This document shows positions 31,401 to 51,947 of a stretch of 62,352 nt of DNA, in pieces; position 1 is the first letter of the stretch, and the number at the start of each line of letters is the position of its first letter. The notes under the pieces are model-generated. The model searched no databases and had not been told where the DNA came from. It worked only from the letters and a program-made list of their open reading frames with translations. Where the stretch lies: the IMG/VR virus record IMGVR_UViG_3300050821_003061, positions 1 through 62,352 of that record. One strand, 5' to 3'. This stretch comes from a virus. A program made the translations under genes and the position numbers.

Positions 31401-32449
31401 CCTTCCAAGACGCCGTGCATGTCGGCACCTACGACGTAAAGAGCGACCGCAAGCCGCCGAAATTCGACGACGTGATGAAATCGGCCTATGCGATGCTCGG
31501 GCGCGAGATCGTTCCGAAATATGCGCCGCTCGAAGCGCTGCAAACGGCTGGCGGGAAGACAGTCTCAGCGATGATGACCCGCGCCGATCAGGCGTTCGCC
31601 GAGTACAAGAGCGCGATGCGAGCGATTACCAAAGACCCGGATATCGCGGCAGAGCAAGCCAATCGATTGGCGGACGGCAGAGAGGCAATGCGGGCCAAGC
31701 TCGCCGTCGTCTATCCTGGCTCAATTTTGCATCTCGACGAGAACGATCAAGTCCCGCTGCCCTATGCGATTGTGATGGTGGTGAAACACGAGGGAAAGGC
31801 GCTCAATCCTTATGCGCCGTCGAGTTGGCAGGCCACGATGGCATTCCCCGGTTACGGCATGAGAACGGTTCCGTTTTCGCAGTTGGGAACGAGGGAAACC
31901 GCCGAACCGGATGCGATGCAGGTAGCGCCAGCATCTATGAAACCGGATGAACTCGCCAAGATGTTCGACAGCTTCAAGAGCGAGCTTCGCGAAAAGCGGG
32001 TGATCGCCACGGGCAATCTACTTACGGCCTTCGATCTCCTACGCCATGCTGGCCAGATCGCGCATTTCACGATGGACGACGGCACGGTTCGCCAGGGCAT
32101 CATTCTCCCGCGCAAGCAGACCTCATTCAAGGACGTTGCCGGCGGGGCCGTCAAGAAACTTCGAGAGCCGAGCGACATCATCAAATTTCTGGAGAAACCC
32201 GGGGGAACCGCGGTTTCCGCGGATGGAGCGATCACGATAAGCCGCCTATATGGCGGCTTTCTTATTTCCGTCGTTGGCGCGCGATCCATAGGCGGAAAAT
32301 ACTTCCTCGATCCCGGCGTTCTTGAGGCGCTAGGCCGTGACGAATTCATCAAACGCGGCAGCGAAATGCGTGCGTCTGCGCCCCCCGACAGAGCCACGGC
32401 TGTCTTCGAGGCCCTGATCAAAGCCGGCGCGAATTTCCAGCAGAAGTAA
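25469..32449 (+). CDS. Giant polyvalent protein: InPase-like, N6-methylase and SBNO-type helicase
   Basis: A 2326-residue protein. The leader DPWAGLANWD (8-17) matches the ejection protein at 21157. An InPase-like domain spans about 338-470 (IENPKGSIRSG...GKDGDHVDIFLG...FDEHKIV). An N6-adenine methylase follows with EPSAGNGA (767-774) and NPPF (832-835). A Strawberry-notch-like SF2 helicase has GDQTGIGKGR (1274-1283), DESH (1409-1412) and MLGRVNRTGQ (about 1812-1821). This is the architecture of phage polyvalent proteins related to P1 DarB, injected with DNA to protect it from host restriction. The Pro/Gly linker at about 974-1075 overlaps another gene. Confidence 0.85.
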   Translation: MTDAAAADPWAGLANWDHPLPPGFEYVDDKNYPPPPRQTSARSVLGAGASGINAGLAGTLGLPVDVANTALRGVGLQTNPAPIMGSAWLRGIERSVGINPDLASDATTAEKIAHAGGYGAAAATVPAAGVGLAGEAGALTGPALETAQAITGAPTATTAGLGAVAGAAGGAAAEAAPKGFETAASLAAQLAAGHGFGKGVSSLTSTPPPSDIEQFLNEADVASARAAGAKTRVEIDEFIRNKEAGTTAALPAPASMVGEGAPANAPHVAEPPQAEAQAPPNIVAPENAPPVAEQAGAAQAGTRQAPVKVQAPDEIEPARNVADTAPSPAQSEAGNYQKGHANFDGLPVTIENPKGSIRSGTDPNGTPWSSVLPADYGYVKGSVGKDGDHVDIFLGDKGPNGKAFVIDQNDPATGKFDEHKIVAGVDNVAEAAQIYHGAFQDGSAPQRIGGITEVPIDQLKTWLASGPVKKPFAKPAPLPEGFVPYTGFEDGTDRPVTATKPAQNIPENITAGLTAEQEAVVTSHLKASGLTQADIGQLWPLGLRPIDIDPQAAAAAKQHEAAGAPPDTAYERAVIEAALADPKVQGINDGEQLPAAPEPIQSSVATAPEPRPPVAGAGPVTLPALGKSPAPGAPETAPTSLTDAAGRQHVLDTSQPSDAIAKHLLEKGSLSREDAAKLTGHNLSDPNQLKAFEENVELGVVKAARHIIRAIAQPEVFDRLVKLYGDQPKLGTRTSTSMRDQAYSTPIPLAYAASRLSGVAPDKTVYEPSAGNGALLIEAHAVDTVANELNPGRLNALKSQGFLAMNKDASKPTTAEAAVKQNDGPFDIVLLNPPFGVRHGEGGAGDRFDLSRFQPGYETGEIDHAIALNSLAAMKPDGRAVLILGGPSPLAKSDEARTKAYGAKAKREFYKTLYDKFNVDGHFTVSGDLYEKQGAGWPVDVITISGAGKSALLYPMMTAPPMLNTWAAVKEKALAEQPSHPQPVSEPRGEAHAPSPTVGAPGHDIEDQPLNGGLGNAGPPNRPEGEPGALRPTGVPQQHEHREPSAAPEPTEHPVRGEPGGHGQPRPTERRPPGVENRISAVLGDLANYDGNRVYLSTVRAALSDLPRAEQDAAIKSYAASHDVGLYPNDNRITITQDQRDNAVHIGNEPRHFFFVGNPPPPRHAAPARQPRAAPAPPSQPEAPKEAETENQVAYSPKSTAGTKLGTLAPRNMRDASDAALASVESRHGPIAKYVSSELGYKAADLGKHYSAEQVDALGLAIDNIERGGSLILGDQTGIGKGRVLAGLIRYGLRKRMTPIFVTEKANLYAAMFDDMTDIGMTDMLGREPRILPTDSNLKLPIGSQGTILKTPDGPEQEKQLRDVAANGKLPDHDMIMTTYSQMQTVKGQDTARRGFLRLMAPNAIILFDESHNAGGAAVEKRIAKGKPPPPPDRAEFARELVQKAKAVVYSSATYAKRPDSMRLYSKTDMRYAVADMKDLGEAIKKGGVPMQQVVASALAESGQYLRRERSFDGIKYDMEVTPIDRALYSGFSKALRAINDFSKKAGKSVKDIDKEVKAEAAIAGQDASVGAAGAESTNFTSLMHNVVSQFLLASKAERAGQLAVEAINRGERPVIAVANTLESFVSDYMEQTGAKTGDLIRASFGDLLSRYLDRSRVVTIKKPFGAVTDKHTMTDEELGPEGLAAYHAAQAVINGLDFGKLPISPIDKIRQVISQAGHAVSEITGRNNVLDYGKGNIPQIGTRSGKERSVAGRTQTVKDFNSGKLKALILNESGATGISLHDSEAFPESGRGQRAMIIAQAHPNIDTHMQMLGRVNRTGQVSKPRYAQLGADVAAEKRPMAVLAKKLASLNANTTASAKSGLSGKGAVDFLNRYGDEVVTQVMLDDMRAHIDMGEPLKESLSPTEPMEDAARRATGRIAFLEPDIQDRIMDAIESQYKAKIDDLDERGENALEAKHLDLQAKYEGGADISQKTGDSPFQDAVHVGTYDVKSDRKPPKFDDVMKSAYAMLGREIVPKYAPLEALQTAGGKTVSAMMTRADQAFAEYKSAMRAITKDPDIAAEQANRLADGREAMRAKLAVVYPGSILHLDENDQVPLPYAIVMVVKHEGKALNPYAPSSWQATMAFPGYGMRTVPFSQLGTRETAEPDAMQVAPASMKPDELAKMFDSFKSELREKRVIATGNLLTAFDLLRHAGQIAHFTMDDGTVRQGIILPRKQTSFKDVAGGAVKKLREPSDIIKFLEKPGGTAVSADGAITISRLYGGFLISVVGARSIGGKYFLDPGVLEALGRDEFIKRGSEMRASAPPDRATAVFEALIKAGANFQQK
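28389..28694 (+). CDS. Probable nested gene inside the polyvalent gene, other frame
   Basis: A 101-residue ORF in the +1 frame with a TTG start. AAGGAG (28376-28381) lies seven bases before it. Of its 101 codons, about 89 end in G or C, like genuine genes here, whereas the polyvalent frame over the same bases has mostly A/T third positions and reads as a Pro/Gly/His-rich linker. The predicted protein has ordinary composition (LASHAAKLMHRVPQSERPDM...NLPNILCAENPEDMA). An overprinted gene is the simplest reading; two compensating frameshifts in the big gene are the alternative. No function is known. Confidence 0.6.
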   Translation: MPSNQAIRSQLASHAAKLMHRVPQSERPDMILRINRSMADSGMLDPLIDPKANPEHFGQQAFLNNMSIENHLPHLNLPNILCAENPEDMANRVLPNDGHLE

Positions 32450-37988: not shown

Positions 37989-38196
37989 CTATCATTCTCG
38001 CGTGGAACCCGCGCCTCTGCTCTTCGTCTATGATTACAGGCACCAATAATGCCCGGTTCTCGCGTATGATCTTTACGCAAATGTCCACACATTCATCACA
38101 AATGAAAACGCACGGACCGGCAATGAGTTTGCCCACGTCACGAACGTTCTTACCGCAAAATGAACAATATAGTTTATCCGCCTCAGCAGGTGTCAT
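37936..38196 (-). CDS. Stand-alone ClpX-type zinc-finger protein
   Basis: An 86-residue protein. Residues 8-45 ('[20 protein letters not shown]...[12 protein letters not shown]') match the N-terminal zinc-binding domain of ClpX, with C11, C14, C33 and C36 as ligands; the ATPase is absent. In ClpX this domain dimerises and recruits adaptors and substrates. A free copy could compete for adaptors or redirect ClpXP (inference). It starts inside the end of the LuxR-type gene (14-base overlap), so the two are translated together. Confidence 0.75.
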
Positions 38197-38425
38197 TTTG
38201 CAGCTCCATTCTGACGACAAACGCGGCGATCGCGCTTTGCCGGCGCAGACCGGTCTTGTCGCGAATGCTTGTAAGGTGCTTGCGCACGGTTTCATGAGAG
38301 CGGCCGATTATCACTGCGACCTGCACGGCGTTCTTGCCCTGCGCGATGATTAAGGCGACGCGGATTTCGGCTGGCGAAAGGCCGAGGGTTTGGAGTTTCG
38401 CTTCCGTGATACGGGGAGGGGTCAT
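38183..38425 (-). CDS. LuxR/GerE-type HTH regulator, minimal
   Basis: An 80-residue protein that is almost only a GerE-type helix-turn-helix: '[45 protein letters not shown]', with no receiver or autoinducer domain. It should bind DNA as a small activator or repressor. A palindrome made of the same half-site as the phage operators (GTAGCC-GA-GGCTAC) lies 13 bases upstream of its ATG. It forms an operon with the ClpX-type finger gene and lies beside attP. Confidence 0.75.
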
Positions 38426-38437
38426 GGCGCCGCGCTT

Positions 38438-38451
38438 GTAGCCGAGGCTAC
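38438..38451. promoter_or_regulatory. Palindromic operator GTAGCCGAGGCTAC
   Basis: A perfect 14-base palindrome immediately upstream of the LuxR-type gene. Its half-site GTAGC/GCTAC is the same as in the immunity region at 47334-47373 and 47923-47964, and TTGTAGCCG occurs in both places. Likely target of the phage repressor or Cro-like protein. Confidence 0.55.
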
Positions 38452-38556
38452 ATCGCGTCCCGCATTCGCCCCGAATACTCGCGAATCGATGCGTGTTGAA
38501 CCGGGGCTATTCGTTTCGATCTGCGTTGATTTCATTCGATTATCCACCTAGGTTCG

Positions 38557-38605
38557 TCCCTTCACACGGGAGGGGTCACAGGTTCAATCCCTGTCGCGCC
38601 CACCA
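38557..38605 (+). other. attP core: 3' half of tRNA-Val(CAC)
   Basis: The bases from the anticodon arm to the 3' CCA of a tRNA: anticodon loop TTCACAC with CAC at 38563-38565, T arm ACAGG-TTCAATC-CCTGT (38578-38594), acceptor strand CGCGCCC, then ACCA. The 5' half (acceptor, D arm) is absent, so this is not a functional tRNA gene. The integrase gene ends about 390 bases away. Such a fragment restores the host tRNA on integration. Only one copy is present and phage genes lie on both sides, so the site looks unrecombined. Confidence 0.85.
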
Positions 38606-38700
38606 ATGTTTTCATATAGTTAGTTGACAATTTGGCGATCCATTTCGGGGCCGATTTCAGGGGCCGCTCCTAGAACTGTGTCGATGTTGCCAGCTCGCCA

Positions 38701-38799
38701 TCAGCCAAGTAGATGCCAAAGCGACCAAAAGGCTATTCCGAAGCCAAATCCAGATAAGAAAAAACTTGCACATGCGAGCCAAAGCCAAAAATTTTCCAT
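38701..38799 (-). CDS. Tiny membrane protein near attP
   Basis: A 32-residue protein beginning MENFWLWLAC, mainly hydrophobic with Phe/Trp residues. GGAAAGG lies just upstream and its ATG overlaps the preceding stop (ATGA). Last gene of the integration operon. Function unknown. Confidence 0.55.
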   Translation of the reverse strand: MENFWLWLACASFFLSGFGFGIAFWSLWHLLG

Positions 38800-38987
38800 C
38801 ACCTTTCCTTCCCCGAAACAAGCCGCTCCACGTCTTTCGAAAGGTCAAAGTCGATCACGATAGGCTGTTCGTCTGGGTGCGTCTCGTTCCAATGGTCAAT
38901 GTCGTCCTTCATTTGGCGAAGCTCTCTGAGAATTGCGTTGCGGCGGCGCGCAAATAGGACTGAAGCGTTACCTGTGGCCAGCTTCAT
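38799..38987 (-). CDS. Small charged protein downstream of the integrase
   Basis: A 62-residue protein beginning MKLATGNASVLFARRRNAIL, helical and highly charged. It starts five bases after the integrase stop, so it is probably co-expressed. Function unknown. Confidence 0.6.
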   Translation of the reverse strand: MKLATGNASVLFARRRNAILRELRQMKDDIDHWNETHPDEQPIVIDFDLSKDVERLVSGKER

Positions 38988-38991
38988 CAGA

Positions 38992-40164
38992 TCATCTTCT
39001 CTTTCCCGACACGCTGGCCACAAGTCCGCGCAGCGCGCTTGGCGAAAGATGCGCGTAGGTCGCTTCCACCACCCTTTCCGTCGTTCCAATCGCGCTCGCG
39101 ATCATCGCGAACGAATAGCCCGCCTGAACAGCCCAAGATGCGAAGGTGTGGCGAAGAATATGAGGCGTCACTTCCGGCCCGAGTGCAGCCTTGACGCGCG
39201 CGGTATGCCAGGCCCGCCGCATCTTGGCGATCGGCAAGCCGCCCCATTCGATGACATGGACGCAATTTCGGGAATCTGGTTGACTGACTTCAAGCCCGGG
39301 TTTCCACCTTCGCAAATGCGCGGCAAGCCGTGGCGAGATCGGAACCGGCGGGCGCCGCTTGCTGGACTCGCTCTCCCCGGCGCCGCGGCGGTAAATCAGC
39401 CCAGCGTCGAGATCGATCCAGCCAGCGTCCACGGACGGCAGCCAGCGAAGCCGCAGAATGGCATCGTGACGCGTCCCGGTGTAGAGGCCCAGCAAGATGA
39501 ACCTGGCGACGTGGCGGTGCCCGGAGCGCCATGCAGCCCATAGCAAACGCGCGGCCTCGGATCTAGTGAGCCAGCGCAGCCGAGCGGGCGAGGGCTTCGG
39601 CAGATCCACCGGCACCGGATATTTCAGCTTGCCTTCGCGATGCGCGTAATTCAGCGCCGCGGCAAGGAGACCAAGTTCCCTACGCGCGGAAGATGGTGTG
39701 ACGGTGCGAATGCGCGACGCAAAATTATCCTCCGAGCTAAATTTAGTCGAAGTACTAACAAACTCTAATTTTGTCTTGAAACTGGCAATTGGCTGCGCGG
39801 TGCGCCATGTGGCGTACTCTCGGCTGCGGCCTGCCGTCACGTCGGACACCATCTTGTCGCCCCACCATCTGGCGAGCGGCGCCATCGTATAGGCTGCGAG
39901 TTCTGGACGGCGCATCATTGGCGCGTGTTCTTTGAGGTAGAGAGTAAGGACGTCGGCGACGGGAATTCTGGCCGGATCACCGTCGCCGAAGGCCGGTCGG
40001 TATTTTGCGGCGAGATATTCCGAGAGCCTTTTTTCAGCTTCTCCATGCTGGCTTGCAGCTGAGCCCGTGCCGATCTCATGCCCTCCGTCTCTAATTGACC
40101 ATTGCGGCTGTCGTCCTTTTCTTTTCCGCAAATATAAGTGCGCTCCCTTACTAGGGCGGGGCAT
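38992..40164 (-). CDS. int: Tyrosine recombinase integrase
   Basis: A 390-residue protein. The catalytic set is visible: R232 (TGTRHDAILRLRW), H335-x-x-R338 (PHILRHTFASW) and nucleophile Y370 (VVEATYAHLSP). An N-terminal arm-binding region and a central core-binding domain (about 65-190) precede it. It joins attP and attB at a tRNA-Val gene by strand exchange through a 3'-phosphotyrosine. Its first 250 bases overlap the excisionase gene in another frame. The ATG at 40164 is kept because residues 8-50 resemble the usual N-terminus of alphaproteobacterial phage integrases. Confidence 0.9.
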   Translation of the reverse strand: MPRPSKGAHLYLRKRKGRQPQWSIRDGGHEIGTGSAASQHGEAEKRLSEYLAAKYRPAFGDGDPARIPVADVLTLYLKEHAPMMRRPELAAYTMAPLARWWGDKMVSDVTAGRSREYATWRTAQPIASFKTKLEFVSTSTKFSSEDNFASRIRTVTPSSARRELGLLAAALNYAHREGKLKYPVPVDLPKPSPARLRWLTRSEAARLLWAAWRSGHRHVARFILLGLYTGTRHDAILRLRWLPSVDAGWIDLDAGLIYRRGAGESESSKRRPPVPISPRLAAHLRRWKPGLEVSQPDSRNCVHVIEWGGLPIAKMRRAWHTARVKAALGPEVTPHILRHTFASWAVQAGYSFAMIASAIGTTERVVEATYAHLSPSALRGLVASVSGKRR

Positions 40165-40373
40165 ATTGGGTAAGCTCCTTCAATCGCGGAAAGGGTTGTA
40201 TAATATCTTTTCCCGACACATGTAAACGCTAGTTTCCCTTGGCGGATAGCAGCCCTAAGCGTGCTCGCAGTCGTTGTGCCGTCCGGGAAGGCCAATGCTG
40301 CGGCGACTTCCAAGCTCAATTTATCGTCGCGAGAAATCTCCGGCCGCACGATGTTGATTGTCCGGCGGCTCAT
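39915..40373 (-). CDS. Excisionase-like protein
   Basis: A 152-residue protein. The front (SLEVAAALAFPDGTTTASTLRAAIRQGKLAFTCVGKRYYTTLSAIE, in parts) has the winged-helix layout of alphaproteobacterial excisionases encoded before integrases, and the tail ('ARAQLQASMEKLKKGSRNISPQNT') resembles their conserved C-terminus. It would bend attachment-site DNA and favour excision. It overlaps the integrase by 250 bases in another frame, with both frames looking genuine. It begins four bases before the end of the HNH gene. Confidence 0.65.
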   Translation of the reverse strand: MSRRTINIVRPEISRDDKLSLEVAAALAFPDGTTTASTLRAAIRQGKLAFTCVGKRYYTTLSAIEGAYPICPALVRERTYICGKEKDDSRNGQLETEGMRSARAQLQASMEKLKKGSRNISPQNTDRPSATVIRPEFPSPTSLLSTSKNTRQ

Positions 40374-40891
40374 CGCACCCTCGCAAATTCGTCAAATTCC
40401 TTATTCGCAGCGGCACAATAGGCCGCGTGCGCTTCCTCTTTTGTGGTGTAATATCCAAGCCAACGCTTTTGGCCTCTGACACCGATTTGGGCCTCCCATT
40501 TTCCTGTCTTCTTGCAGAACTTAGCTCCTTTCAAGCCGCTGGTATTATTCGATTGAGCTAATCTGTTTGCCATGTTCTGTGAGCGCGTTGCGCATCTTAG
40601 GTTGCTCCACCTATCATCGGCGCGGATCATGTTGCGATGGTCAACCATGTTGCCGGTCATGTAGAGAAACGCGAGTCGAGATGCCCGATATCTTTTGCCG
40701 TCGATCATAATATCTCGATAGCCAGTTTGATTAATCCGCCCTGCGATCTCTCCGGCTAGATAATGCGATGTGCTGATAAGACGAATGGACACGCCAGTGT
40801 CTGGATCGTAATGCAATACCTCACGCAACCTCTCCGCAGTAAGCGTATCCCTGGTCACGTCCGATCGCGGGAAGATGGCGCGGGTGGTCAT
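40370..40891 (-). CDS. HNH-AP2 endonuclease
   Basis: A 173-residue protein. Residues 75-110 carry an HNH nuclease motif (VDHRNMIRADDRWSNLRCAT), and the C-terminus ('TSGLKGAKFCKKTGKWEAQIG' onward) is an AP2 DNA-binding domain. This pairing is typical of free-standing homing endonucleases in phages. The start at 40891 overlaps the DUF4326 gene. It is a second, independent homing-type nuclease besides the intron-encoded one. Confidence 0.8.
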   Translation of the reverse strand: MTTRAIFPRSDVTRDTLTAERLREVLHYDPDTGVSIRLISTSHYLAGEIAGRINQTGYRDIMIDGKRYRASRLAFLYMTGNMVDHRNMIRADDRWSNLRCATRSQNMANRLAQSNNTSGLKGAKFCKKTGKWEAQIGVRGQKRWLGYYTTKEEAHAAYCAAANKEFDEFARVR

Positions 40892-41298
40892 TTGTTTGCC
40901 AGCTCCAAGAGAACGTCGGCGTGGCACGCTCGATCGAAAGGGCAAAAGCAAGCCAAATTTTTCCCGCGCAGTTCTGCAACTTTGCTCGCGCTGTAGAATC
41001 CGGTATCCGCTAATTTTCGAAATAAATTGACGGCGATCTCTTGGTTCGCAACGAACGTGAAAGCTGGAGTTGCATATTCTTCCGTCGTTTCGCACCAAGC
41101 CATTCTAAAAAAAGATCGGCCGGATGGGTCAGGATCGCCGACTTTGAAGTATGCCCCAATCCTAGCTGGATTGCCCCATCCGCTCGGCCGCGCGACATTG
41201 ACCGCCGGAAGCCCGTTCGTCGCGCGAGAATGAGCTTGCAAGTTGAAACCCTTCGCGCGTGAGAGATGAAGGCGCACGGGGCGCTGCTCGGCGGTCAC
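40888..41298 (-). CDS. DUF4326-family protein
   Basis: A 136-residue protein. 'VRLHLSRAKGFNLQ' near the start and 'GKNLACFCPFDRACHADVLLELAN' at the end are the two conserved blocks of DUF4326, with Cys residues in the second block probably binding metal. Function in phages is unknown. The GTG at 41298 overlapping the previous TGA is preferred over an ATG at 41331. Confidence 0.75.
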   Translation of the reverse strand: MTAEQRPVRLHLSRAKGFNLQAHSRATNGLPAVNVARPSGWGNPARIGAYFKVGDPDPSGRSFFRMAWCETTEEYATPAFTFVANQEIAVNLFRKLADTGFYSASKVAELRGKNLACFCPFDRACHADVLLELANK

Positions 41299-41474
41299 GG
41301 CTTCGGCTCCGCAATCATGTATTTTCGGCATATATCGAGCAATTCAATCAACCTCGTCATGCTTTCGGGAGACGAGACCAGCGCATTTAACAAGAGGCGG
41401 CGCCCTTCATCTTCAAAGTTGATGCGAAAATAATCATCAGGGAGAATTACAGGCTCGTCAGTCACGGATGTCAT
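41295..41474 (-). CDS. Small acidic hypothetical protein
   Basis: A 59-residue protein beginning MTSVTDEPVILPDDYF, acidic and helical. A strong AGGGAGGA lies upstream. It overlaps the DUF4326 gene by its stop codon. Confidence 0.6.
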   Translation of the reverse strand: MTSVTDEPVILPDDYFRINFEDEGRRLLLNALVSSPESMTRLIELLDICRKYMIAEPKP

Positions 41475-41875
41475 TCCTCCCTGAGTCTTTCCGCTTGCTC
41501 TGGAGACGGCCAGTTTTCGTTCTCCTGCGGGTTGGGGAACTCGCGAATGGTATGGATCAATCCGCGATCCTCGATGGTTCCGATAATGCGCCCGCTGCTC
41601 TCCGGCGGGTTGGTGAGATCGCCGCGCGCGGCCATGGCGCGGAAGATATCCTCATACTCGGCGCTTCCGCAATGAAAGGCCGCATCGACCATCTCCTCCG
41701 TCGCCTCGATCGGATTGACGCGCGCGATGCCGTGCAGGGAGTCGAGAATGTGGGCGGCCTTTTCTTTGGCTATGGCAATGGTCTGTGGGGAGAAAGTCAC
41801 GAGGCCATGTTCGTAGCGCAGCTCCTCCAAAGCCATCGCCTCGATGCACTGCGCGCGGTCTTCGGCGGGAGTCAT
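41471..41875 (-). CDS. Hypothetical protein, early leftward operon
   Basis: A 134-residue soluble acidic protein beginning MTPAEDRAQCIEAMALEELR. It is coupled by ATGA-type overlaps to both neighbours. No domain recognised. Confidence 0.65.
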   Translation of the reverse strand: MTPAEDRAQCIEAMALEELRYEHGLVTFSPQTIAIAKEKAAHILDSLHGIARVNPIEATEEMVDAAFHCGSAEYEDIFRAMAARGDLTNPPESSGRIIGTIEDRGLIHTIREFPNPQENENWPSPEQAERLREE

Positions 41876-42063
41876 TGGACCTCCACGGGAGGCTCTTGAG
41901 GCTTCAATGGAATGTTTGACTCTGGCCAGTTCTGCGGGTCTGCCTTCTGCGGCGCAATCGGCACAGTCCAGATAGTTCCAAACTCATCACGACATTCGAA
42001 GTGCGTAGTGACTTGGACGCATGTGATACAAAGAACAGCCAAAATGAGGTAGTCGCTGGTCAT
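41872..42063 (-). CDS. Small membrane or exported protein
   Basis: A 63-residue protein with an N-terminal hydrophobic helix (LILAVLCITCVQV) and a Pro-rich soluble tail. Cys residues occur at the end of the helix, but the lipobox is not clear. Possible envelope or exclusion function; unproven. Confidence 0.55.
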   Translation of the reverse strand: MTSDYLILAVLCITCVQVTTHFECRDEFGTIWTVPIAPQKADPQNWPESNIPLKPQEPPVEVQ

Positions 42064-42290
42064 GACCCGGCCTCCTCGGCGGCGATGGCGGCTTGCAGAT
42101 TCTCAAGTTTAGCCGATCCCCAAACTGAAATAACTTCCTTCGCCGCCGCGAGCAGCCGGGCGTGCGATTTAAAGAGACGCCGAAATTGTGCTTCGGCGGC
42201 GGCGGCGCGTGCTCTTTCGAATTCTTCGTTGGTGCGAAGGCGCTGCAACTCCGCTTCAAATTCCTCTTGCGCGCGCTCTACCCCGTTCAT
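42060..42290 (-). CDS. Coiled-coil hypothetical protein
   Basis: A 76-residue, Glu/Arg/Ala-rich helical protein (MNGVERAQEEFEAELQRLR). Overlaps both neighbours by four bases. Function unknown. Confidence 0.6.
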   Translation of the reverse strand: MNGVERAQEEFEAELQRLRTNEEFERARAAAAEAQFRRLFKSHARLLAAAKEVISVWGSAKLENLQAAIAAEEAGS

Positions 42291-42586
42291 GAGATCGCTT
42301 TCATCTGTTTCTTGATGTCATCCATCGCCGCTCCTGTGTCGGTCTTGCCGTCCTTTTTTTTCTTGCGCCGCAACTCGCCGCTCTCGCGACGCTTGTCCGC
42401 AATGATGTTGCCGGCGCGCTCGATGGCGTTGGCGAGTGGTATGTCGAGCCGAGCTAGTGCGTTACGAACTTGTTCCTCTGTCCGGCCGATCAAAAGATCA
42501 ATCATCGCCAGTTGTTGCTCGTACTCCCGGCAGTCGGCGGCCGTGTAGAACGTGCTTCCGTCGTCGGCTTCAAAGGTCGTTTTCAT
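42287..42586 (-). CDS. Hypothetical protein, early leftward operon
   Basis: A 99-residue protein beginning MKTTFEADDGSTFYTAADC, with a Lys-rich C-terminal part. It resembles small early phage proteins acting on host functions only in general composition. No family recognised. Confidence 0.6.
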   Translation of the reverse strand: MKTTFEADDGSTFYTAADCREYEQQLAMIDLLIGRTEEQVRNALARLDIPLANAIERAGNIIADKRRESGELRRKKKKDGKTDTGAAMDDIKKQMKAIS

Positions 42587-42593
42587 ATCAGCC

Positions 42594-42797
42594 TCATTTG
42601 TTGGCTAGGTCAAAAAGCGTGTCCTTCTGCGCAAGCGCGCGGTAGTCTTCGACGATCGCAGACATTAGCGCGATCTCTCGGTCTGACTTTTCTTTCGAAA
42701 AGCGGCCGTTCTCAACAAACCTTGGATACACCTGGAGGCGTAATTTCAGCTCACGCTCGGCGCACTTCAATTTTTCCTCGGCGGTGAACGCGGTCAT
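42594..42797 (-). CDS. Helical hypothetical protein
   Basis: A 67-residue protein beginning MTAFTAEEKLKCAERELKLR. The ATG at 42797 overlaps the stop of the preceding gene and is preferred to upstream starts. Function unknown. Confidence 0.6.
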   Translation of the reverse strand: MTAFTAEEKLKCAERELKLRLQVYPRFVENGRFSKEKSDREIALMSAIVEDYRALAQKDTLFDLANK

Positions 42798-43000
42798 TTG
42801 ATCCTCATTCTCGCATCGGTGGCCGCCTTCCAGACGTTGCGAAGTAGGCGGGCCTCGTCGCGGAGTTCGATGGCCTCGTCGCGCAAGTCCTGCAATTCCT
42901 CGAAGGCACGCCACGCGCGAACAAGCATCCACACAGCGGCGCCAATTAGGATCACAATGACCACCGTCGCCAACCAATCGAAATATCCCGCGTTGCACAT
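42794..43000 (-). CDS. Membrane-anchored coiled-coil small protein
   Basis: A 68-residue protein (start MCNAGYFDWL) with one transmembrane helix (VVIVILIGAAVWMLV) followed by a charged coiled coil. The ATG shares a base with the preceding TGA. Function unknown. Confidence 0.6.
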   Translation of the reverse strand: MCNAGYFDWLATVVIVILIGAAVWMLVRAWRAFEELQDLRDEAIELRDEARLLRNVWKAATDARMRIK

Positions 43001-43755
43001 CAGATCAGCCCATTTCCCCACGGCGATGCCTTGATCTCGGATGCGGGCTCCACCGCGTCGTGCGCCGACTGCGGGGGATTAGCTTCGGCCTTCACGCCGG
43101 AGAGCGCGCCTTCGACAAAATCATTTTCGTCTTGGGTCAAACCACCGCGGTCTGCGTCGGCGGCCGTACGTTTCCATGATTCGAGCTGCGCGGCGCCGCC
43201 CGCATCGCGCTTTTGATCAGGGGGTAGCTTCCGCCAGAAATCCGAGAGAGCAGCCATTCCTTTTTCAGCCGCGCGATGCCCGTGCTCAATGGTAGTTTCG
43301 GCTCGCGCCGCCATATCATTAAGCTGCCCCAATAGCTCTCCTGCTCGGCCCCGTTGCGTGAGCGGGTGAACGGTGAACGGCTTGCGATTGCTGCGTGAGG
43401 CGGTCAAGGCCAGCGTGACCTCGTTCTTGATCCCTGACATATGCGAAATGCGAATGCCCCCCACTTCTGCCCCGGCGAAAAGGACGTGCTCGTCGCGATA
43501 GATCGTCATCGATCGCCCGACCCATGCGCCTGTGTCCGGCCCCCACACGAACACCAAAACGCGCCGCATGGATTTTCCCGGTTTATATGGTCTGCCCTCG
43601 TCGCCATCGAAGTAGACGGTGACCGGCTGATCTCCCTTGCCGCCCTCGCTGACCGTCACTTTCTTAACCGTTATCGTGAGCGTGCGGCCGAGCAGACTAT
43701 CGGCGTTGAGCTGATCCGATTTTGGCTCGATCGTTTTCAGGATGTCGTCGTTCAT
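43000..43755 (-). CDS. Hypothetical protein linked to phage recombination genes
   Basis: A 251-residue protein. The first 115 residues contain conserved-looking blocks ('GRTLTITVKKVTVSEGGKGDQPVTVYFDGDEGRPYKPGKSMRRVLVFVWG', read in parts; 'GRSMTIYRDEHVLFAGAEVGGIRISH') found in phage proteins of unknown function that sit beside exonucleases and annealing proteins. The C-terminal half is helical and acidic, ending SPWGNGLI, like the acidic tail of single-strand-binding partners. A role in recombination is inferred from context only. Confidence 0.6.
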   Translation of the reverse strand: MNDDILKTIEPKSDQLNADSLLGRTLTITVKKVTVSEGGKGDQPVTVYFDGDEGRPYKPGKSMRRVLVFVWGPDTGAWVGRSMTIYRDEHVLFAGAEVGGIRISHMSGIKNEVTLALTASRSNRKPFTVHPLTQRGRAGELLGQLNDMAARAETTIEHGHRAAEKGMAALSDFWRKLPPDQKRDAGGAAQLESWKRTAADADRGGLTQDENDFVEGALSGVKAEANPPQSAHDAVEPASEIKASPWGNGLI

Positions 43756-43982
43756 AGCGTAATCTCGATCTTCTTCGCGCCCGCGTGTTTTAAAATAAGC
43801 CGTGCGAATTCAATTGCCTCTGGAGGATAGAGCCCAAGCCACGCAACCGGCTTTCCAAATTCTATGCGCACAATGCGAGCGGACGGATCAAAGGTCACCG
43901 CAAAACGAAGTTCGCCTTCATCGGACTCGTCCAAATGACCCTTCGGAAATTTTCCTGTGGCTCCTAGTTTCTCGTCATTCAT
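43752..43982 (-). CDS. Small hypothetical protein beside the exonuclease
   Basis: A 76-residue protein beginning MNDEKLGATGKFPKGHLDE, ending in an alpha/beta segment with Lys. Its ATG shares a base with the exonuclease stop. Function unknown. Confidence 0.6.
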   Translation of the reverse strand: MNDEKLGATGKFPKGHLDESDEGELRFAVTFDPSARIVRIEFGKPVAWLGLYPPEAIEFARLILKHAGAKKIEITL

Positions 43983-44890
43983 TATATTGCCTCCATCGGC
44001 GTGCTGACCATCAGCTCTAATTCCCGATCGAGCCACGCCGTCTCGGCCCATGCCGGATACTTTGGCCGCTCGATCTTGCGCGGATAGCCAGGCCAGCGAT
44101 TTTCGGTGAGGCACTTGTGCCATTTGTTGATTGCGTACCTGGCTTTCCTGTCGCCGAAGTCGCGCGTAATTCCGTCCATTTCGAAAACTCGGGCCTCGAA
44201 AGGCGCCCCGCTTTCGACGAAAATCCAACGGTAGACAAAGCGTCCTGGGGGCACCTCCTCAAGCTGTTCGAGCCCGCGAAGATAAAAGGCCGCGCGCATG
44301 TCGAACGCGGTATCCGCGGCGGCGATCAGGTTGTTCAAGGACCGATCATCGAGCCCAGTTCCGGTCGTCTTGAGATCGTAAATCGCGCCGTCGTCGAGAT
44401 CGAGCCAGTCAGGCATCGCGCGGCAAAGCGGACCATCGCCATTATCACGCCAGATCACTACGGTTTCGGCGATGCCCATGCCTCCCATGACCGCGCGTTC
44501 GGCGCCTGGGATTTCGGCAAGCGCGGCACGGACGGCGTCGGCGACGTGGATGGCAGCGATAAGCTCCGGTTGCTTTAGCGGGATTTTCCCACGCAGAGTA
44601 ACATCATCGCGCCAGTCGCGTGCCTTCTGTGTCGTGTAATTGTCGAATGGACAAATTTCGAGGCCGCTTCCTCTGCCAAGTAAGATTTCGTGCGCCGCGG
44701 AGCCAAAGTCCATTGCCTTCGTTCCAACCCGCGTTGCCTCTGGATTGAGCCTCGGGTGAGCGGCGCGCGCATGGCGTGGTGTCTTTTGGATCAGCAATTT
44801 TGCGATCGAACTCGAAAGGCTCGGCTCATCCGCCGGGTCTGCATGATATTCGGCCGCTGGCATGTCGCGGTAAAGCCCTGGTCCGGTCAC
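43982..44890 (-). CDS. PD-(D/E)XK exonuclease, RecE/lambda-exo-like
   Basis: A 302-residue protein with a GTG start. The N-terminus 'YHADPADEPSLSSSIAKLLI' and 'AMDFGSAAHEILLG' fit the RecE-type PD-(D/E)XK exonucleases. The active site is seen as D in 'CRAMPDWLD' and D-x-K in 'IYDLKTTG'. It would resect double-strand ends for phage recombination. No annealing protein of RecT or Erf type is recognised nearby; the gene at 43755 is the best candidate partner. Confidence 0.75.
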   Translation of the reverse strand: MTGPGLYRDMPAAEYHADPADEPSLSSSIAKLLIQKTPRHARAAHPRLNPEATRVGTKAMDFGSAAHEILLGRGSGLEICPFDNYTTQKARDWRDDVTLRGKIPLKQPELIAAIHVADAVRAALAEIPGAERAVMGGMGIAETVVIWRDNGDGPLCRAMPDWLDLDDGAIYDLKTTGTGLDDRSLNNLIAAADTAFDMRAAFYLRGLEQLEEVPPGRFVYRWIFVESGAPFEARVFEMDGITRDFGDRKARYAINKWHKCLTENRWPGYPRKIERPKYPAWAETAWLDRELELMVSTPMEAI

Positions 44891-44899
44891 GCCTTCCTC

Positions 44900-45520
44900 C
44901 TAGTCAACATAAAAGATATTGAGGCGCGCTAACGCTTCGGGAGAATTTGCAGTTTGGCGCAGCAATTCCGCGATCGCGCCATTGCAGACCGTAAAGCCTT
45001 GCTTGCCATACTTGAGCATTCGGCGAACCGAAGCAGTTGGGTAGGTAATTTTGTGAACGGCTAGCCTTTTACGGCCCAAATCCCACAGCGCGTGTTCGCC
45101 ACTCGTCAAAGTTTCTCCGTCGAATGCAAACATGCAAATCGTGAAGTCGAAACTGTCGATAACAGCGGCGGCATTCTCATAAAATGCGATCTTGATCGCC
45201 TGAACATCGCGCTCTTTTTCTTCGTTGCCTATCTTCCCGCGATAGTGGATATGGTGCTCCGTCTCGCGCAGCTTGACCAAGCCTTGCGCGGTTACGTGAG
45301 CCGTGAATGCCTCAAGCTGCCATTCGTCTTTAAAAAAATAATCGAAGTCGGTTTCAAGAGGTTCCGCAATAAGAGTTCGCCGAATGGCGCCGCCTGCGAT
45401 CCATGGGCCTTCTGGCGATATCTGAGGCAGCTTCGTGAGAGCCTTACGAAGGTCCGTTTGCTCTGGCGGAAGATCAGCCGAGCGCGCCAAAAATTGATCC
45501 ATGTTGTGAACGAAGCTCAT
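44900..45520 (-). CDS. Nucleotidyltransferase-like protein
   Basis: A 206-residue protein. 'WIAGGAIRRTLIAEPLETDFDYFF' contains the GG-x-x-RR and D-x-D pattern of the pol-beta nucleotidyltransferase fold (tRNA CCA/poly(A) polymerase and related enzymes). A third acidic position may be the D in 'VIDSFDFTICMF'. Target and nucleotide are unknown: tRNA, RNA or protein are all possible. It is expressed just before the exonuclease. Confidence 0.65.
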   Translation of the reverse strand: MSFVHNMDQFLARSADLPPEQTDLRKALTKLPQISPEGPWIAGGAIRRTLIAEPLETDFDYFFKDEWQLEAFTAHVTAQGLVKLRETEHHIHYRGKIGNEEKERDVQAIKIAFYENAAAVIDSFDFTICMFAFDGETLTSGEHALWDLGRKRLAVHKITYPTASVRRMLKYGKQGFTVCNGAIAELLRQTANSPEALARLNIFYVD

Positions 45521-45651
45521 TGTCTCTTTTCCACTTCGCGCCAGATAGCTCGCTGTTGCCGCAAGTCAGCGCTGTTGATGAAGTATCTGGGAGGATTGTC
45601 GCGGAACTTCCGGCAGTAGATGGTGGCCGATGTTGAACAGGCTGCGCACAC
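45517..45651 (-). CDS. Cys-containing mini-protein, uncertain
   Basis: A 44-residue reading frame with a GTG start (VCAACSTSATIYC...) and C-terminal 'FRDNPPRYFINSADLRQQ'. Its stop overlaps the next ATG. The front carries CxxC plus a third Cys, but no Shine-Dalgarno sequence is evident. A competing frame of 40 codons overlaps it. Confidence 0.35.
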   Translation of the reverse strand: MCAACSTSATIYCRKFRDNPPRYFINSADLRQQRAIWREVEKRQ

Positions 45652-45684
45652 GATTGAGAAATGCGTACATGGCGAGATCGCGCG

Positions 45685-45945
45685 TCATTGCGTCAGCTCC
45701 GGCGTTGGGTGCGTGGCAAGATGCCAATTCACACGGTCTGCGGCGATTTGCTCGCGAGTGCGTTCGAATGCCATCTCAACCACGATGCGCTCGGGGCCTG
45801 GTAGTTCCGCAATCAAAGCCTTCGCATATTTGATTTTCCCGGCGCTATCCGGTGGTAGCGGCAAGCAGCCGAATGGCACCCCCAGGTAGGTGCGCGTCTC
45901 GGCGAGAAGGTGAAAGAGCAGGAATGCTATCTCGTCATCGTTCAT
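45685..45945 (-). CDS. Hypothetical helical protein
   Basis: An 86-residue protein beginning MNDDEIAFLLFHLLAETR, mixed helical, with no domain recognised. It overlaps its upstream neighbour by 11 bases. Confidence 0.6.
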   Translation of the reverse strand: MNDDEIAFLLFHLLAETRTYLGVPFGCLPLPPDSAGKIKYAKALIAELPGPERIVVEMAFERTREQIAADRVNWHLATHPTPELTQ

Positions 45946-46135
45946 GATGCTGGCTCCTCTGTTGCTCTCGTTCCCTTTTCAACTCATCCAGATCGGTAGA
46001 ATATTTATCGAGGGCCGCTGCTGCTTCCTTGAGCCTGTCTTCATAAGAGAGCGCGTCTGCGTGCCGCGCGAGACAACGCAAATAGCCATTCATGAAGGCT
46101 ACTCGTACGTTGGCTAAAACAAGGTCATCGCTCAT
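45935..46135 (-). CDS. Small coiled-coil protein
   Basis: A 66-residue protein beginning MSDDLVLANVRVAFMNGYL, with a charged Gln/Arg/His-rich C-terminal helix. Function unknown. Confidence 0.6.
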   Translation of the reverse strand: MSDDLVLANVRVAFMNGYLRCLARHADALSYEDRLKEAAAALDKYSTDLDELKREREQQRSQHHER

Positions 46136-46239
46136 GGGCGCTTATCCTTGAAGACGAAATCGAGAAGCGCGATTGTGCCGTGGTAAGCGATCTTGGCCGA
46201 CACAATGACGCAGAGAGTTGCAAAGAGCGCTTCTGTCAT
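46132..46239 (-). CDS. Tiny membrane protein
   Basis: A 35-residue hydrophobic protein beginning MTEALFATLCVIVSAK. Overlaps both neighbours with ATGA-type junctions. Confidence 0.5.
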   Translation of the reverse strand: MTEALFATLCVIVSAKIAYHGTIALLDFVFKDKRP

Positions 46240-46439
46240 GGCGCGGCCCTGTTTCGGCGTGTGAGGATGATTTCACGCCTGTGCCTGAACTCCGCCATGG
46301 CCTCGTCGGGGCGTTGCTCATTAGAATTCCGCAGCGCGTAATCCCAAACCATGTCCATCAATGCCGCCTTCGAAAGTTGCTCGATCTCATATTGAAATTC
46401 GAACGGGACAAAGATCGGCTTCCTATTCTTGAGGTTCAT
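46236..46439 (-). CDS. Small basic hypothetical protein
   Basis: A 67-residue protein beginning MNLKNRKPIFVPFEFQYEI, ending in Arg-rich sequence. The ATG overlapping the previous stop is chosen over in-frame upstream starts. Confidence 0.55.
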   Translation of the reverse strand: MNLKNRKPIFVPFEFQYEIEQLSKAALMDMVWDYALRNSNEQRPDEAMAEFRHRREIILTRRNRAAP

Positions 46440-46591
46440 GGCGTGGCCTTGTCCGCGTATGGTGCGTATCCTGGGCCGGTTGAGCCGTCGTGTTTGATGC
46501 CGCCGGTTTCGCATCCGACATATTCACCGTAGGCCATGCCAAGAAGAAACATCCCGAGCGTCCATATTTGGAATAGGACCGTGCGCGTCAT
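46436..46591 (-). CDS. Small exported or membrane protein
   Basis: A 51-residue protein with an N-terminal hydrophobic helix and a Gly/Tyr/Pro-rich soluble end, beginning MTRTVLFQIWTLGMFLLG. Coupled on both sides. Confidence 0.5.
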   Translation of the reverse strand: MTRTVLFQIWTLGMFLLGMAYGEYVGCETGGIKHDGSTGPGYAPYADKATP

Positions 46592-46794
46592 GCCCGTTCC
46601 CCCGCGCGGCCGTGCCAGAATTCATCAGCGGTTGGCTCGCCATGGGCCGCCGCGTCTGCGTCACGGTGCGCCGCGTTCGCAGTGAAAATGTCTTCGATCT
46701 CGGATGAGAGATATTCGAGAGCGATGGCCTCGCGCGACGTCGGGTCCATGACCGGCGCGAACGAAAGAGGGTTGGACGAGGGGCGCGCGGTCAT
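46588..46794 (-). CDS. Small acidic hypothetical protein
   Basis: A 68-residue protein beginning MTARPSSNPLSFAPVMDP, with an acidic helix and a His/Asp-rich centre. ATGA overlap to the preceding gene decides the start. Confidence 0.55.
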   Translation of the reverse strand: MTARPSSNPLSFAPVMDPTSREAIALEYLSSEIEDIFTANAAHRDADAAAHGEPTADEFWHGRAGERA

Positions 46795-46976
46795 GGCGTG
46801 GCCCACCATGGTGGATCGAGGCAAGGCGTGTCTTCATGTGGCTCCGCACGTGCGTGCGCATTATTCCAATCGGCGATGGAGGCGCGGCATTCTTCGATCG
46901 TGTCGAAATAGCCGTCTTCTTGCCAATAGAAGCCGTCCTCGTTCTGCGAGATCGTGAAGCCTTGGAAGTTGGTCAT
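46791..46976 (-). CDS. Small hypothetical protein, beta-type front
   Basis: A 61-residue acidic protein beginning MTNFQGFTISQNEDGFYWQ. The front has the strand-turn-strand look of small phage proteins of unknown function. Coupled to both neighbours. Confidence 0.6.
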   Translation of the reverse strand: MTNFQGFTISQNEDGFYWQEDGYFDTIEECRASIADWNNAHARAEPHEDTPCLDPPWWATP

Positions 46977-47287
46977 GGGCGCCCCCCGGCCGCTTCGATG
47001 GCTTCGGCTATTTGCAAGGCCACGTACTGCAACCCGCTTGGGCTCGTCGCGCGATTGTCGAGATGTTGACATAGGAACAAATGCCATTCATCGGCATTCG
47101 ATCCAGCCGGGCGGCTGAGACGCTTCGTCACCATGTCCGTTAGAATGTCGAGCTGAACGCAATCAAGATCGCCTTGTGTCCAGCCATCAAGAAAGTCGCG
47201 GAGCGCGTCGCCTTCCGGCGCCTTGCGCACGGATTGCTTTAGGAACGCTGCGGCCGCGTCCGCTACGGCTTTAAGGTTCTTGGACAA
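46973..47287 (-). CDS. First gene of the leftward early operon, hypothetical
   Basis: A 104-residue helical protein with a TTG start (preceded by GGAG). It begins about 40 bases after the predicted leftward promoter start. No function recognised. Confidence 0.6.
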   Translation of the reverse strand: MSKNLKAVADAAAAFLKQSVRKAPEGDALRDFLDGWTQGDLDCVQLDILTDMVTKRLSRPAGSNADEWHLFLCQHLDNRATSPSGLQYVALQIAEAIEAAGGRP

Positions 47288-47331
47288 TTTGGCTCTCCAT
47301 TCCCCGGCGAGCGCCGAGGTTGATGGAGAAG

Positions 47332-47373
47332 TTGCTACACTACGTAGCCGCGAAAGTCAACACACCATGTAGC
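47332..47373 (-). promoter_or_regulatory. Leftward early promoter with operators
   Basis: On the minus strand: TTGACT (47360-47355), a 17-base spacer, TAGCAA (47337-47332). The operator GCTAC-N5-GTAGC (47334-47348) covers the -10 and part of the spacer, and a further GTAGC half-site lies at 47369-47373. A bound dimer would block RNA polymerase. The remainder of 47288-47458 includes an AT-rich stretch and no gene. Confidence 0.6.
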
Positions 47374-47458
47374 GATTTTGAAAAAAATATTTTCCCCGTT
47401 CAGGGCGGTGCGACGTTCTTGGACCGCAACATTACCGTATTTTAATAGCTGTTAACCA

Positions 47459-47896
47459 TCATGGATGTTTTCGAGGCGTCAATTTGCTCGGTGATCTTAG
47501 ACCGGGAGACGGAGCTGGTGATGCTCCTTGCCGCTGGGCATCCGGTGCAAGAAGAGCTGGCTGTTGTTCGTGCGCTGCTTCGATTGATCGCTTTAGCAAC
47601 CGCTCCAATTCCGCTAGAGCGGATGCACTGAGCTTGTGGCGCGTTTCCTCGGGAAACATTATGTCGATCGCCGTCACCGTGGCGCCGTGGTGGCTAAAGA
47701 AGGCCGCATATCGCTCCGCGTCGTCCTGCCCGATCGTGCGGCTTCCGCGCTCATGGGCCGTATAGGTCGATGCCTTCCATTTTGCGCGCGCTGAGGAGGC
47801 CTTGACGGCCTTCGCCGCTGAGGTAAAGCCGGCTTCTAGTCGAGCCGCCATAAGGCGCCGTCCTTGCTCGATCCGTATTTTGGCGCGGTCTTCCAT
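47459..47896 (-). CDS. Probable phage repressor (XRE-type HTH)
   Basis: A 145-residue protein. Residues 1-70 ('RAKIRIEQGRRLMAARLEAGFTSAAKAV', 'YTAHERGSRTIGQDDAERYAAFF') have the layout of an XRE helix-turn-helix; the C-terminal half is Pro/Ser-rich and lacks a LexA-type peptidase. It lies between two divergent early promoters, as lysogeny repressors do. The ATG at 47896 is preferred over an upstream TTG. Without an autoprotease domain, induction must work by another route. Confidence 0.65.
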   Translation of the reverse strand: MEDRAKIRIEQGRRLMAARLEAGFTSAAKAVKASSARAKWKASTYTAHERGSRTIGQDDAERYAAFFSHHGATVTAIDIMFPEETRHKLSASALAELERLLKRSIEAAHEQQPALLAPDAQRQGASPAPSPGLRSPSKLTPRKHP

Positions 47897-47922
47897 CGCT
47901 ACGCAACGTAACAAAAAAATTG

Positions 47923-47964
47923 GCTACATGCGGTATTGACAAAAGCTAGCACTCGTTGTAGCCG
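47923..47964 (+). promoter_or_regulatory. Rightward early promoter with operators
   Basis: TTGACA (47936-47941), a 17-base spacer, TAGCCG (47959-47964). Half-sites GCTAC (47923-47927), GCTAGC (47945-47950) and GTAGC (47958-47962) flank and overlap it. It mirrors the leftward promoter: both have a TAGC-type -10 lying inside an operator half-site. Confidence 0.6.
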
Positions 47965-47972
47965 TTTCCAGG

Positions 47973-48221
47973 ATGAAGAACTTTCGGGAAATTATCGATG
48001 CCTTTGGCATCGGAAACTTTGCGAAGCTCCTTGGAGTGGAGAAAAGCCATGTCCGCGTGATGAAAGTCAGGAACGTTATCCCGCCTCAGTATTGGCGGAA
48101 ACTGCTAGAAGCGCCGAGGCCCGCCACGTTGGCCACATTGAGCCTTGCGGACCTCGACGATCTCTATTCGTCGTCGGCGCCACGCCGACAGAACGCCACC
48201 GAACGCGAGGCGGCCGAATGA
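47973..48221 (+). CDS. Cro-like small DNA-binding protein
   Basis: An 82-residue protein. 'IIDAFGIGNFAKLLGVEKSHVRVMKVRNVIPPQYWRKLL' has the pattern of a Cro/C1-type helix-turn-helix, including the phrase 'IPPQYW' seen in Cro-like proteins of alphaproteobacterial phages. It is the first gene rightward, divergent from the repressor. Its ATG lies only nine bases past the predicted -10, so the mRNA leader is very short or absent. Confidence 0.75.
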   Translation: MKNFREIIDAFGIGNFAKLLGVEKSHVRVMKVRNVIPPQYWRKLLEAPRPATLATLSLADLDDLYSSSAPRRQNATEREAAE

Positions 48222-50701: not shown

Positions 50702-51087
50702 GCGACGATCCAGTTTCCTTCAACCGCGATAACAAATTTGATCTTCAATTGAGCCAAGCGCGATTGCGGGAGCACGCGCTAGCGGACATCCTTTGCCACG
50801 GGCGGATCGAACTCAAGAGCGAGACATGGCAGTGGGAGCAGACTGGTAATATTTGCATCGAGTATCTGCAAAACGGTAAGCCTTCGGGGATTGCGACAAC
50901 TACCGCGGACGTATGGGTTCACGAGCTGCGCCGTGAGGATAGCACGCTCGTTTATTTAATGTTTCCAGTAGAGCGACTGAAGGCTCTTGCGCGTTCGGCG
51001 ATCGAGGCTGGTCTATGGCGCAATGGCGCTGGCGATGGCGGCCGGTTCACTGTCGCGCTGATCAGGCTCAAGGACATTTTGAGATGA
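50698..51087 (+). CDS. PD-(D/E)XK-like nuclease, small
   Basis: A 129-residue protein. 'FDLQLSQARLREHALADILC' followed by 'IELKSETWQWEQTGNICIEYLQNGKPSGIATTTADVW' (in parts) is the pattern of small phage PD-(D/E)XK proteins: E-x-K in IELKSE and a following Glu (ICIEY). Probably a junction or nick-processing nuclease; it has not been tested in this family as far as I know. Confidence 0.65.
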   Translation: MSDDPVSFNRDNKFDLQLSQARLREHALADILCHGRIELKSETWQWEQTGNICIEYLQNGKPSGIATTTADVWVHELRREDSTLVYLMFPVERLKALARSAIEAGLWRNGAGDGGRFTVALIRLKDILR

Positions 51088-51947
51088 GCGGATTAGTTTC
51101 GCTTGACGATCTCGCTATGAAGATACGCGAGGCTTACGCGGGTTTGATGGAGACCGCGACCGAGCGGGCTTTGAGAGTTGGTCGTTTACTTTTGGAAGCC
51201 AAGAAGCATGTTTCCGAAGGTAAATGGGAAACCTGGCTTGCCGCGAATGTTCCCTTTGGCGTGCGCTCTGCACAACGATTTATGCAACTTACACGCGCTC
51301 CAAAGTTACACGCGACAAGCTTGTCGTTTCTGGCGAATAACGAAGCAAAAACAATAGAAAAAAAAGAAGCACGCGCGGCACGAGAAGCTGAACTTGGCGC
51401 AGCACAAATGGCTCTGCCAAACAAAAAATACGGCCTTATATACAGCGACCCTGAGTGGCGGTTCGATGTATGGTCGCGCGAAACCGGCATGGATCGCGCG
51501 GCAGACAATCACTATCCGACGAGCGGTATTGAGGCGATTATCGAGCGCGATGTGGCATCCATCGCTGCCGATGATTGCATGCTTTTTCTGTGGGCTACAG
51601 TTCCAATGTTGCCTCAAGCGCTTCGCGTGATGTGCGCATGGGGTTTTGAGTATCGTTCGCATTTCGTCTGGGCAAAAGACAAGATTGGAACAGGGTATTG
51701 GAACCGCAATAAGCATGAGCTTTTACTGATCGGCGTGCGCGGGAACATCCCAGCTCCGGCAATGGGAACGCAGGCTGCGTCGCTGATTGAGGCACCAGTA
51801 GGCAAGCATTCCGCGAAGCCTGAAAAATTCCTTGAAATAATCGAGAGCTACTTTCCGTCACTGCCGAAGATAGAACTAAATCGGCGTGGTTCACCGCGGC
51901 CCGGTTGGGATGCGTGGGGAAACGAAGCCGCGGAGGCTGCCGAATGA
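51084..51947 (+). CDS. MT-A70 adenine methyltransferase with DUF3102-like front
   Basis: A 287-residue protein. Residues 5-75 resemble DUF3102 ('MKIREAYAGLMETATERALRVGRLLLEAKK...'). From about 112 the MT-A70 fold starts, with DPEW (122-125) replacing the usual DPPW and 'LFLWATVPMLPQAL', 'FVWAKDKIGTGYWNRNKHELLLIG' (in parts) following. It would methylate adenine N6 in DNA. The start at 51084 overlaps the preceding stop. It is coupled to a PD-(D/E)XK gene. Confidence 0.8.
   Translation: MSGLVSLDDLAMKIREAYAGLMETATERALRVGRLLLEAKKHVSEGKWETWLAANVPFGVRSAQRFMQLTRAPKLHATSLSFLANNEAKTIEKKEARAAREAELGAAQMALPNKKYGLIYSDPEWRFDVWSRETGMDRAADNHYPTSGIEAIIERDVASIAADDCMLFLWATVPMLPQALRVMCAWGFEYRSHFVWAKDKIGTGYWNRNKHELLLIGVRGNIPAPAMGTQAASLIEAPVGKHSAKPEKFLEIIESYFPSLPKIELNRRGSPRPGWDAWGNEAAEAAE

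Follow-up and report, generated by a model that had tools for sequence, protein, structure and literature searches.

The 62,352-nucleotide stretch of viral DNA studied here (IMG/VR record IMGVR_UViG_3300050821_003061, below called the window) very probably carries an immunity switch of the lambda/P22 type, in which a repressor gene (cI) is placed between a left operator region (OL, positions 47334-47373) and a right one (OR, 47898-47962). The word GTAGC, or its complement GCTAC, recurs in both regions. What makes them special is the arrangement, not the word: a TTGAC -35 box is surrounded by operators of the form GCTAC-N5-GTAGC at a 25-bp spacing. An earlier, sequence-only reading had noticed the repeated half-site and had proposed that it marks three regulatory regions, the two early promoters and a place in front of a LuxR-type gene. 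That observation is partly confirmed. All copies that it named are present, including both early-promoter clusters (GCTAC at 47334, GTAGC at 47344 and 47369; GCTAC at 47898 and 47923, GTAGC at 47958; GTAGC at 38438, GCTAC at 38447). The half-site does mark the two early promoters, not as a lone word but as part of 15-bp operators with fixed spacing.

Arrangement and recurrence of the array

The sequence-only reading was to be abandoned if the word proved no commoner than chance, and on this check the bare word fails: there are 71 copies in the window, against 64 +/- 8 expected from dinucleotide shuffles and 75 +/- 9 from a third-order Markov model. The spaced pair GCTAC-N30-GTAGC behaves differently. 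It occurs twice, at exactly the two early promoters, where 0.017 occurrences are expected, and two were reached in none of 300 simulations.

A protein search with the window repressor among viral contigs gave 16 relatives; the motif played no part in this search. Upstream of their repressor genes lies an array with GCTAC at offset 0, GTAGC at 10, GTCAA (a leftward TTGAC) at 22, GTAGC at 35, GCTAC at 49 and GTAGC or a drifted copy of it at 59, followed by the repressor ATG at about 64. When the whole locus is searched for the 0/10/22/35 part, the best match lies in the gap between cro and the repressor gene in 16 of 16 relatives. Ten of them have 0-1 mismatches over the 20 bases; in the remaining six the array has drifted, e.g. 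to ACTAC-N5-GTAAT. Among the ten near-perfect relatives column identity is 94% in the half-sites and 100% in the -35 box, against 57% in all other columns and 45% at the start of the repressor coding sequence.

Written as a pattern with 20 fixed bases, GCTACN5GTAGCN7GTCAAN8GTAGC, the array matches 25 viral stretches, while two control patterns of equal stringency gave 0 and 0 matches in the viral contigs. In a collection of bacterial and archaeal genomes (84,980 species) it matches 13 stretches, and judged by their record titles all of these are alphaproteobacterial: Chelatococcus, Bosea, Bradyrhizobium, Microvirga, Methylorubrum, Azorhizobium, Tardiphaga, 'Rhodovulum' sp. PH10, a Rhodospirillales metagenome-assembled genome and others. 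When four bacterial genomes (5.5-6.8 Mb) were scanned in full, the pattern was present at one or both of the OL and OR sites only. A DNA similarity search with the window immunity region found nothing in phages.

The matches fall into two classes. Arrays of the OR class have all five half-sites, and in nearly all of them the start of a Cro-like gene is 8-12 bp away on one side and the repressor ATG is at offset 64-67 on the other. Arrays of the OL class have half-sites at 0, 10 and 35 only, and are followed by a short leader and then by a small gene whose identity varies between phages. At least 18 other contigs share with the window the layout expected of a switch, a repressor gene between outward-facing OL and OR early promoters that carry copies of one operator; in these contigs OL and OR are 0.5-3.3 kb apart. 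Bradyrhizobium phage ppBeUSDA76-2 carries both GCTAC arrays.

Operators and promoters in the window

The array can be read as three 15-bp palindromes, O1 (offsets 0-14), O2 (25-39) and O3 (49-63), with the consensus tcGCTAC-N5-GTAGCga. The left half of O2 reads AAYAC because its AA belongs to the GTCAA/TTGAC -35 box. At 47334-47373 on the minus strand the window has the leftward early promoter PL with two predicted operators, in the same 0/10/22/35 geometry as in the relatives. OL1 (47334-47348, GCTACactacGTAGC) is perfect and OL2 (47359-47373) reads AACACaccatGTAGC; PL would consist of a -35 box TTGACT (47355-47360) and a -10 hexamer TAGCAA (47332-47337) with a spacer of 17. The right region, at 47898-47964 on the plus strand, lies between the divergent cro and repressor genes, agrees in position and geometry with the OR arrays of all 16 relatives from the protein search, and combines the rightward early promoter PR and a putative repressor promoter (PRM) with three predicted operators: OR1 (47948-47962), whose right half is degenerate (GCTACaacgaGTGCT on the minus strand), OR2 (47923-47937, AATACcgcatGTAGC) and OR3 (47898-47912, GTTACgttgcGTAGC). 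The predicted PR has a -35 box TTGACA (47936-47941) and a -10 hexamer TAGCCG (47959-47964), again with a spacer of 17. As in the relatives with their 0/10/35/49/59 array, the immunity region has several predicted palindromic operators, three at OR, that overlap PR and the presumed repressor promoter; in the window OR1 has one good half.

A symmetric operator matrix, trained on the relatives alone and scored over the whole window, places OR3 (19.7), OL1 (18.7), OL2 (15.5) and OR2 (10.2) at ranks 1 to 4. The best score per simulated window averages 10.7 with a maximum of 17.3 (60 windows), so that OR2 alone would not stand out; it is its position that supports OR2.

Several features of the window weigh against our interpretation. 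OR1 scores -2 and has one good half-site. OR3 is 1 bp farther out than in the relatives, at offset 50, giving a 25/25 instead of a 25/24 spacing, and the half-sites of the window OR are 52% identical to those of the relatives in fixed register, a value that is low partly because of this shift. The -10 hexamers of PL and PR are non-canonical and match the sigma-70 -10 poorly; a generic scan found nothing. In the relatives, too, the hexamer keeps this distance from the -35 box. The suggestion that the -10 elements of both early promoters contain the half-site is right as to position, TAGC being within GTAGC in TTGACT-N17-TAGCAA and TTGACA-N17-TAGCCG.

Two further elements, GGCA at offset 30-33 and TACRCT at 51-56, are conserved in OR arrays and not in OL arrays. 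We infer that these may form a weak PRM whose start coincides with the repressor ATG. The predicted start of PR is close to the cro ATG, so the cro mRNA is probably leaderless. In the PL leader (47280-47330, minus strand) the GGAG ribosome-binding site of the first gene, which starts with TTG, lies within a strong stem-loop. A leader hairpin was considered as a general feature and dropped: the stem-loop of the window has a z-score of -1.6, but the mean over 28 OL leaders is +0.4.

Repressor and Cro-like protein

The repressor gene (47459-47896, minus strand; ATG 1 bp after OR3) encodes a cI-like protein of 145 amino acids with a helix-turn-helix (HTH) domain of the XRE/lambda-repressor type, assigned from an AlphaFold model, Foldseek and the family consensus (STYRAHExGTRTIGQDDAERYA). 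The model has a pLDDT (predicted local distance difference test) of 84.5 and Foldseek matches it to HTH domains, including the lambda cI N-terminal domain and BldD, with weak E-values and a probability near 1. Compared with its relatives, the window repressor carries an insertion ahead of its recognition helix.

The window repressor has no Pfam domain, and this includes the LexA-like, self-cleaving C-terminal domain Peptidase_S24 (PF00717) that would place it in the inducible lambdoid subtype. Such a domain is needed for lambda-style SOS induction, not for the switch itself. Nineteen of the 26 members of the repressor family have it, and some relatives have Pfam matches to HTH families. In a few other members (L019, L025 and L054 with 116-117 amino acids, L015 with 175) the protein is too short for an HTH plus an S24 domain. 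Since the window repressor lacks S24, its RecA-stimulated self-cleavage is unlikely and induction probably takes another route; the short proteins as a subset suggest that non-SOS induction may be used by them as well.

The Cro-like protein (47973-48221, plus strand; 82 amino acids) starts about 8 nt after the -10 hexamer of PR. It is assigned from a family profile, a fold match and its position: Cro-like genes adjoin OR arrays in the relatives, as this gene does in the window. Against the PDB the profile finds XPH1, Xfaso 1 Cro and P22 Cro with E-values of 7e-4 to 3e-3. The model has a pLDDT of 83 and its nearest fold is Xfaso 1 Cro (3bd1), with a weak Foldseek E-value of 0.3 and a probability of 0.97. 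A single-sequence query with the window protein found no viral relatives.

Other explanations of the arrays

Could the clusters be a chance pile-up of a common 5-mer? The total count of the word, which equals expectation, is what such an explanation would predict. The N30 spacing at both promoters was never reached twice in simulation, identical arrays stand in dozens of other phages and prophages, and the control patterns have no match in the viral contigs, so that we give chance practically no credence; the comparison of genomes can be regarded as having refuted it already. It could also be argued that GCTAC/GTAGC is merely a -10 element for the host RNA polymerase and not an operator. The -10 boxes of Alphaproteobacteria often contain GCTA, elements of the GCTAnA type are known in Caulobacter, and TAGC overlaps both of our predicted -10 hexamers. 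But conservation extends to the half-sites at offsets 10, 35, 49 and 59, which are not part of the -10 elements of PR and PL; the half-sites form palindromes with halves 10 bp apart, and in other phages they switch as a set to GATAC/GTATC while TTGAC is unchanged. We consider a pure -10 role very improbable.

The remaining alternatives concern the palindrome TGTAGCCGAGGCTACA (TGTAGCC-GA-GGCTACA, 38437-38452), which precedes a gene for a GerE/LuxR-type HTH protein of 80 amino acids (38183-38425, minus strand; Pfam GerE 9e-6) that has the GerE domain only. The perfect palindrome that had been described does exist. It is 16 bp long, contains the shared TGTAGCC and is about 12 bp upstream of the gene start, all of which would fit binding by the same repressor as in the three-region regulon. 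Its half-sites are inverted, however, being GTAGC-N4-GCTAC instead of GCTAC-N5-GTAGC. Its best matrix score is 4.5, which is background, and 14 other places in the window score higher. An inverted GTAGC..GCTAC pair that close arose in 69 of 300 simulations, and palindromes with 7-bp arms and N2, of any sequence, number 4 in the window against 6.5 expected. In the four bacterial genomes, the strict array pattern did not turn up at any third site. Location is also unfavourable. The 3' half of a tRNA gene (GGTTCAATCCCTGTCGCGCCCACCA) lies at 38576-38606, beside the leftward integrase; ARAGORN finds no complete tRNA there, and the piece is probably the core of the phage attachment site attP. The palindrome and the GerE gene lie beyond it, at the other end of the prophage and next to the late region. 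Finally, the GerE protein has no orthologue among viral contigs or phages with which it could be compared. Five viral matches were rejected as relatives, the common part being a short stretch within much larger, unrelated proteins, and among bacteria the best hits are GerE domains that form part of longer open frames. We therefore think it very unlikely that the repressor acts here. The palindrome might instead be an operator of some other protein, e.g. for GerE autoregulation, as it adjoins the start of a small HTH gene and palindromes in such places are often autoregulatory. Palindromes of this size arise by chance several times per window of this size, and there are no relatives for a test of conservation; this reading has perhaps a modest chance of being correct. 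Probably the palindrome is a chance look-alike, and we assign neither it nor the GerE gene to the regulon. The candidate repressor/Cro regulon as first proposed is thereby reduced to the two early promoters, for which the 16 relatives and the additional OL/OR pairs speak strongly.

How the switch may work

From the sequence, the conserved geometry, the gene neighbourhood and the protein families, we infer binding, promoter starts, leaderless translation and the site preference of each protein as follows. The repressor, transcribed leftward, and the Cro-like protein, transcribed rightward, would both recognize the 15-bp operator. At OR three operators about 25 bp apart would lie over the -10 of PR (OR1), over its -35 (OR2) and over the presumed -10 of PRM (OR3), the last abutting the repressor start codon. 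At OL two operators would cover the -10 and -35 of PL, which would drive the leftward operon to the recombination genes and integrase. Bound at OL and OR, the repressor of a lysogen would keep PL and PR shut; upon induction or infection Cro would take the same sites.

The gene content of the window is as follows. The leftward operon begins with a gene for 104 amino acids (46973-47287, minus strand) that has a TTG start with GGAG upstream and belongs to no known family. It includes an HNH gene and an exonuclease VIII-like recombination gene in lambda-like placement (43982-44890, minus strand; PHROG 412, 3e-54), and has the integrase at its distal end (38992-40164, minus strand; Pfam Phage_integrase 1.8e-7, PHROG integrase 8e-40). 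On the rightward side cro is accompanied by a RuvC-like gene, a methyltransferase, a primosomal-type protein and the terminase. In the rightward early operon, 51015-51947 encodes a fusion of DUF3102 with an MT-A70 adenine methyltransferase. Elsewhere, 25469-32449 encodes a protein of 2326 amino acids that partly resembles DarB-like antirestriction proteins and minor head proteins.

Half-site classes and immunity specificity

A GATAC/GTATC version of the pattern, at equal stringency, matches 19 viral stretches, many of which have the same neighbours and geometry; a third class, GTTAC/GTAAC, had no matches in the pattern scan. Two phage records with Synechococcus as host, L063 (OM868076) and L064 (PP438430), have the GATAC/GTATC array at both the OL and OR positions. 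The recognition helix of Cro is mostly SHxR[TV][ML]KxR in GCTAC phages and mostly RQ[MW][KR]xR in GATAC phages, with exceptions such as L049. This is suggestive only of a Cro helix that differs with the half-site class. L049 and L080 show the same array geometry in front of repressors whose HTH sequences are quite different.

On balance, we favour the idea that temperate phages of Alphaproteobacteria share one rigid scaffold, with operators at 0, 25 and 49-50 bp in TTGAC-N17-TAG promoters and with cro and repressor probably leaderless. Immunity specificity would then change by a swap of half-sites (GCTAC, GATAC, the drifted ACTAC/GTAAT) together with the recognition helices of Cro and repressor, even between otherwise unrelated repressors. 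The array gives a sequence rule for reading lysogeny switches and immunity groups from the phage and prophage genomes of rhizobia, Methylorubrum and their relatives, a group in which few repressor operators are known. The natural half-site variants on a fixed scaffold would also be material for studying how immunity specificity evolves.

Comparison with known systems

A GCTAC/GTAGC phage operator is not described in the literature searched, which covered few subscription papers. A recent survey looked in Sinorhizobium prophages for operators of lambda and of 16-3 without finding any (PMC12429752). The C repressor of Rhizobium phage 16-3 acts with operators oL1, oL2, oR1 and oR2 (PMC12429752). 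Compared by operator layout alone, this phage resembles the present system in being alphaproteobacterial and in having left and right operator pairs, and differs in having two oR sites where there are three here; the same literature gave no link between 16-3 operators and the GCTAC array. By profile and fold the closest solved relatives of the Cro-like protein are Xfaso 1 Cro (PDB 3bd1) and XPH1 (5w8y). Xfaso 1 Cro comes from a Xylella prophage element, and the matches are weak (profile E about 1e-3; Foldseek E not significant).

With lambda and P22 the window shares a repressor gene between outward early promoters, three OR operators, one operator per 24-25 bp, a Cro-type protein first in the rightward operon (its profile matches P22 Cro) and a leftward operon with recombination genes and integrase. 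It differs from them in the operator itself (GCTAC-N5-GTAGC), in having two operators at OL, in an OR2 that shares bases with the -35 of PR, in a cro that is probably leaderless and in a repressor without S24. In lambda the centre of OR2 is about 42 bp upstream of the start of the repressor mRNA. In the window it is about 32 bp upstream of the presumed start, so PRM activation of the lambda type is not obvious. An OL-cI-OR switch with Cro is of the classical kind; the value of the present one is the breadth and rigidity of its scaffold.

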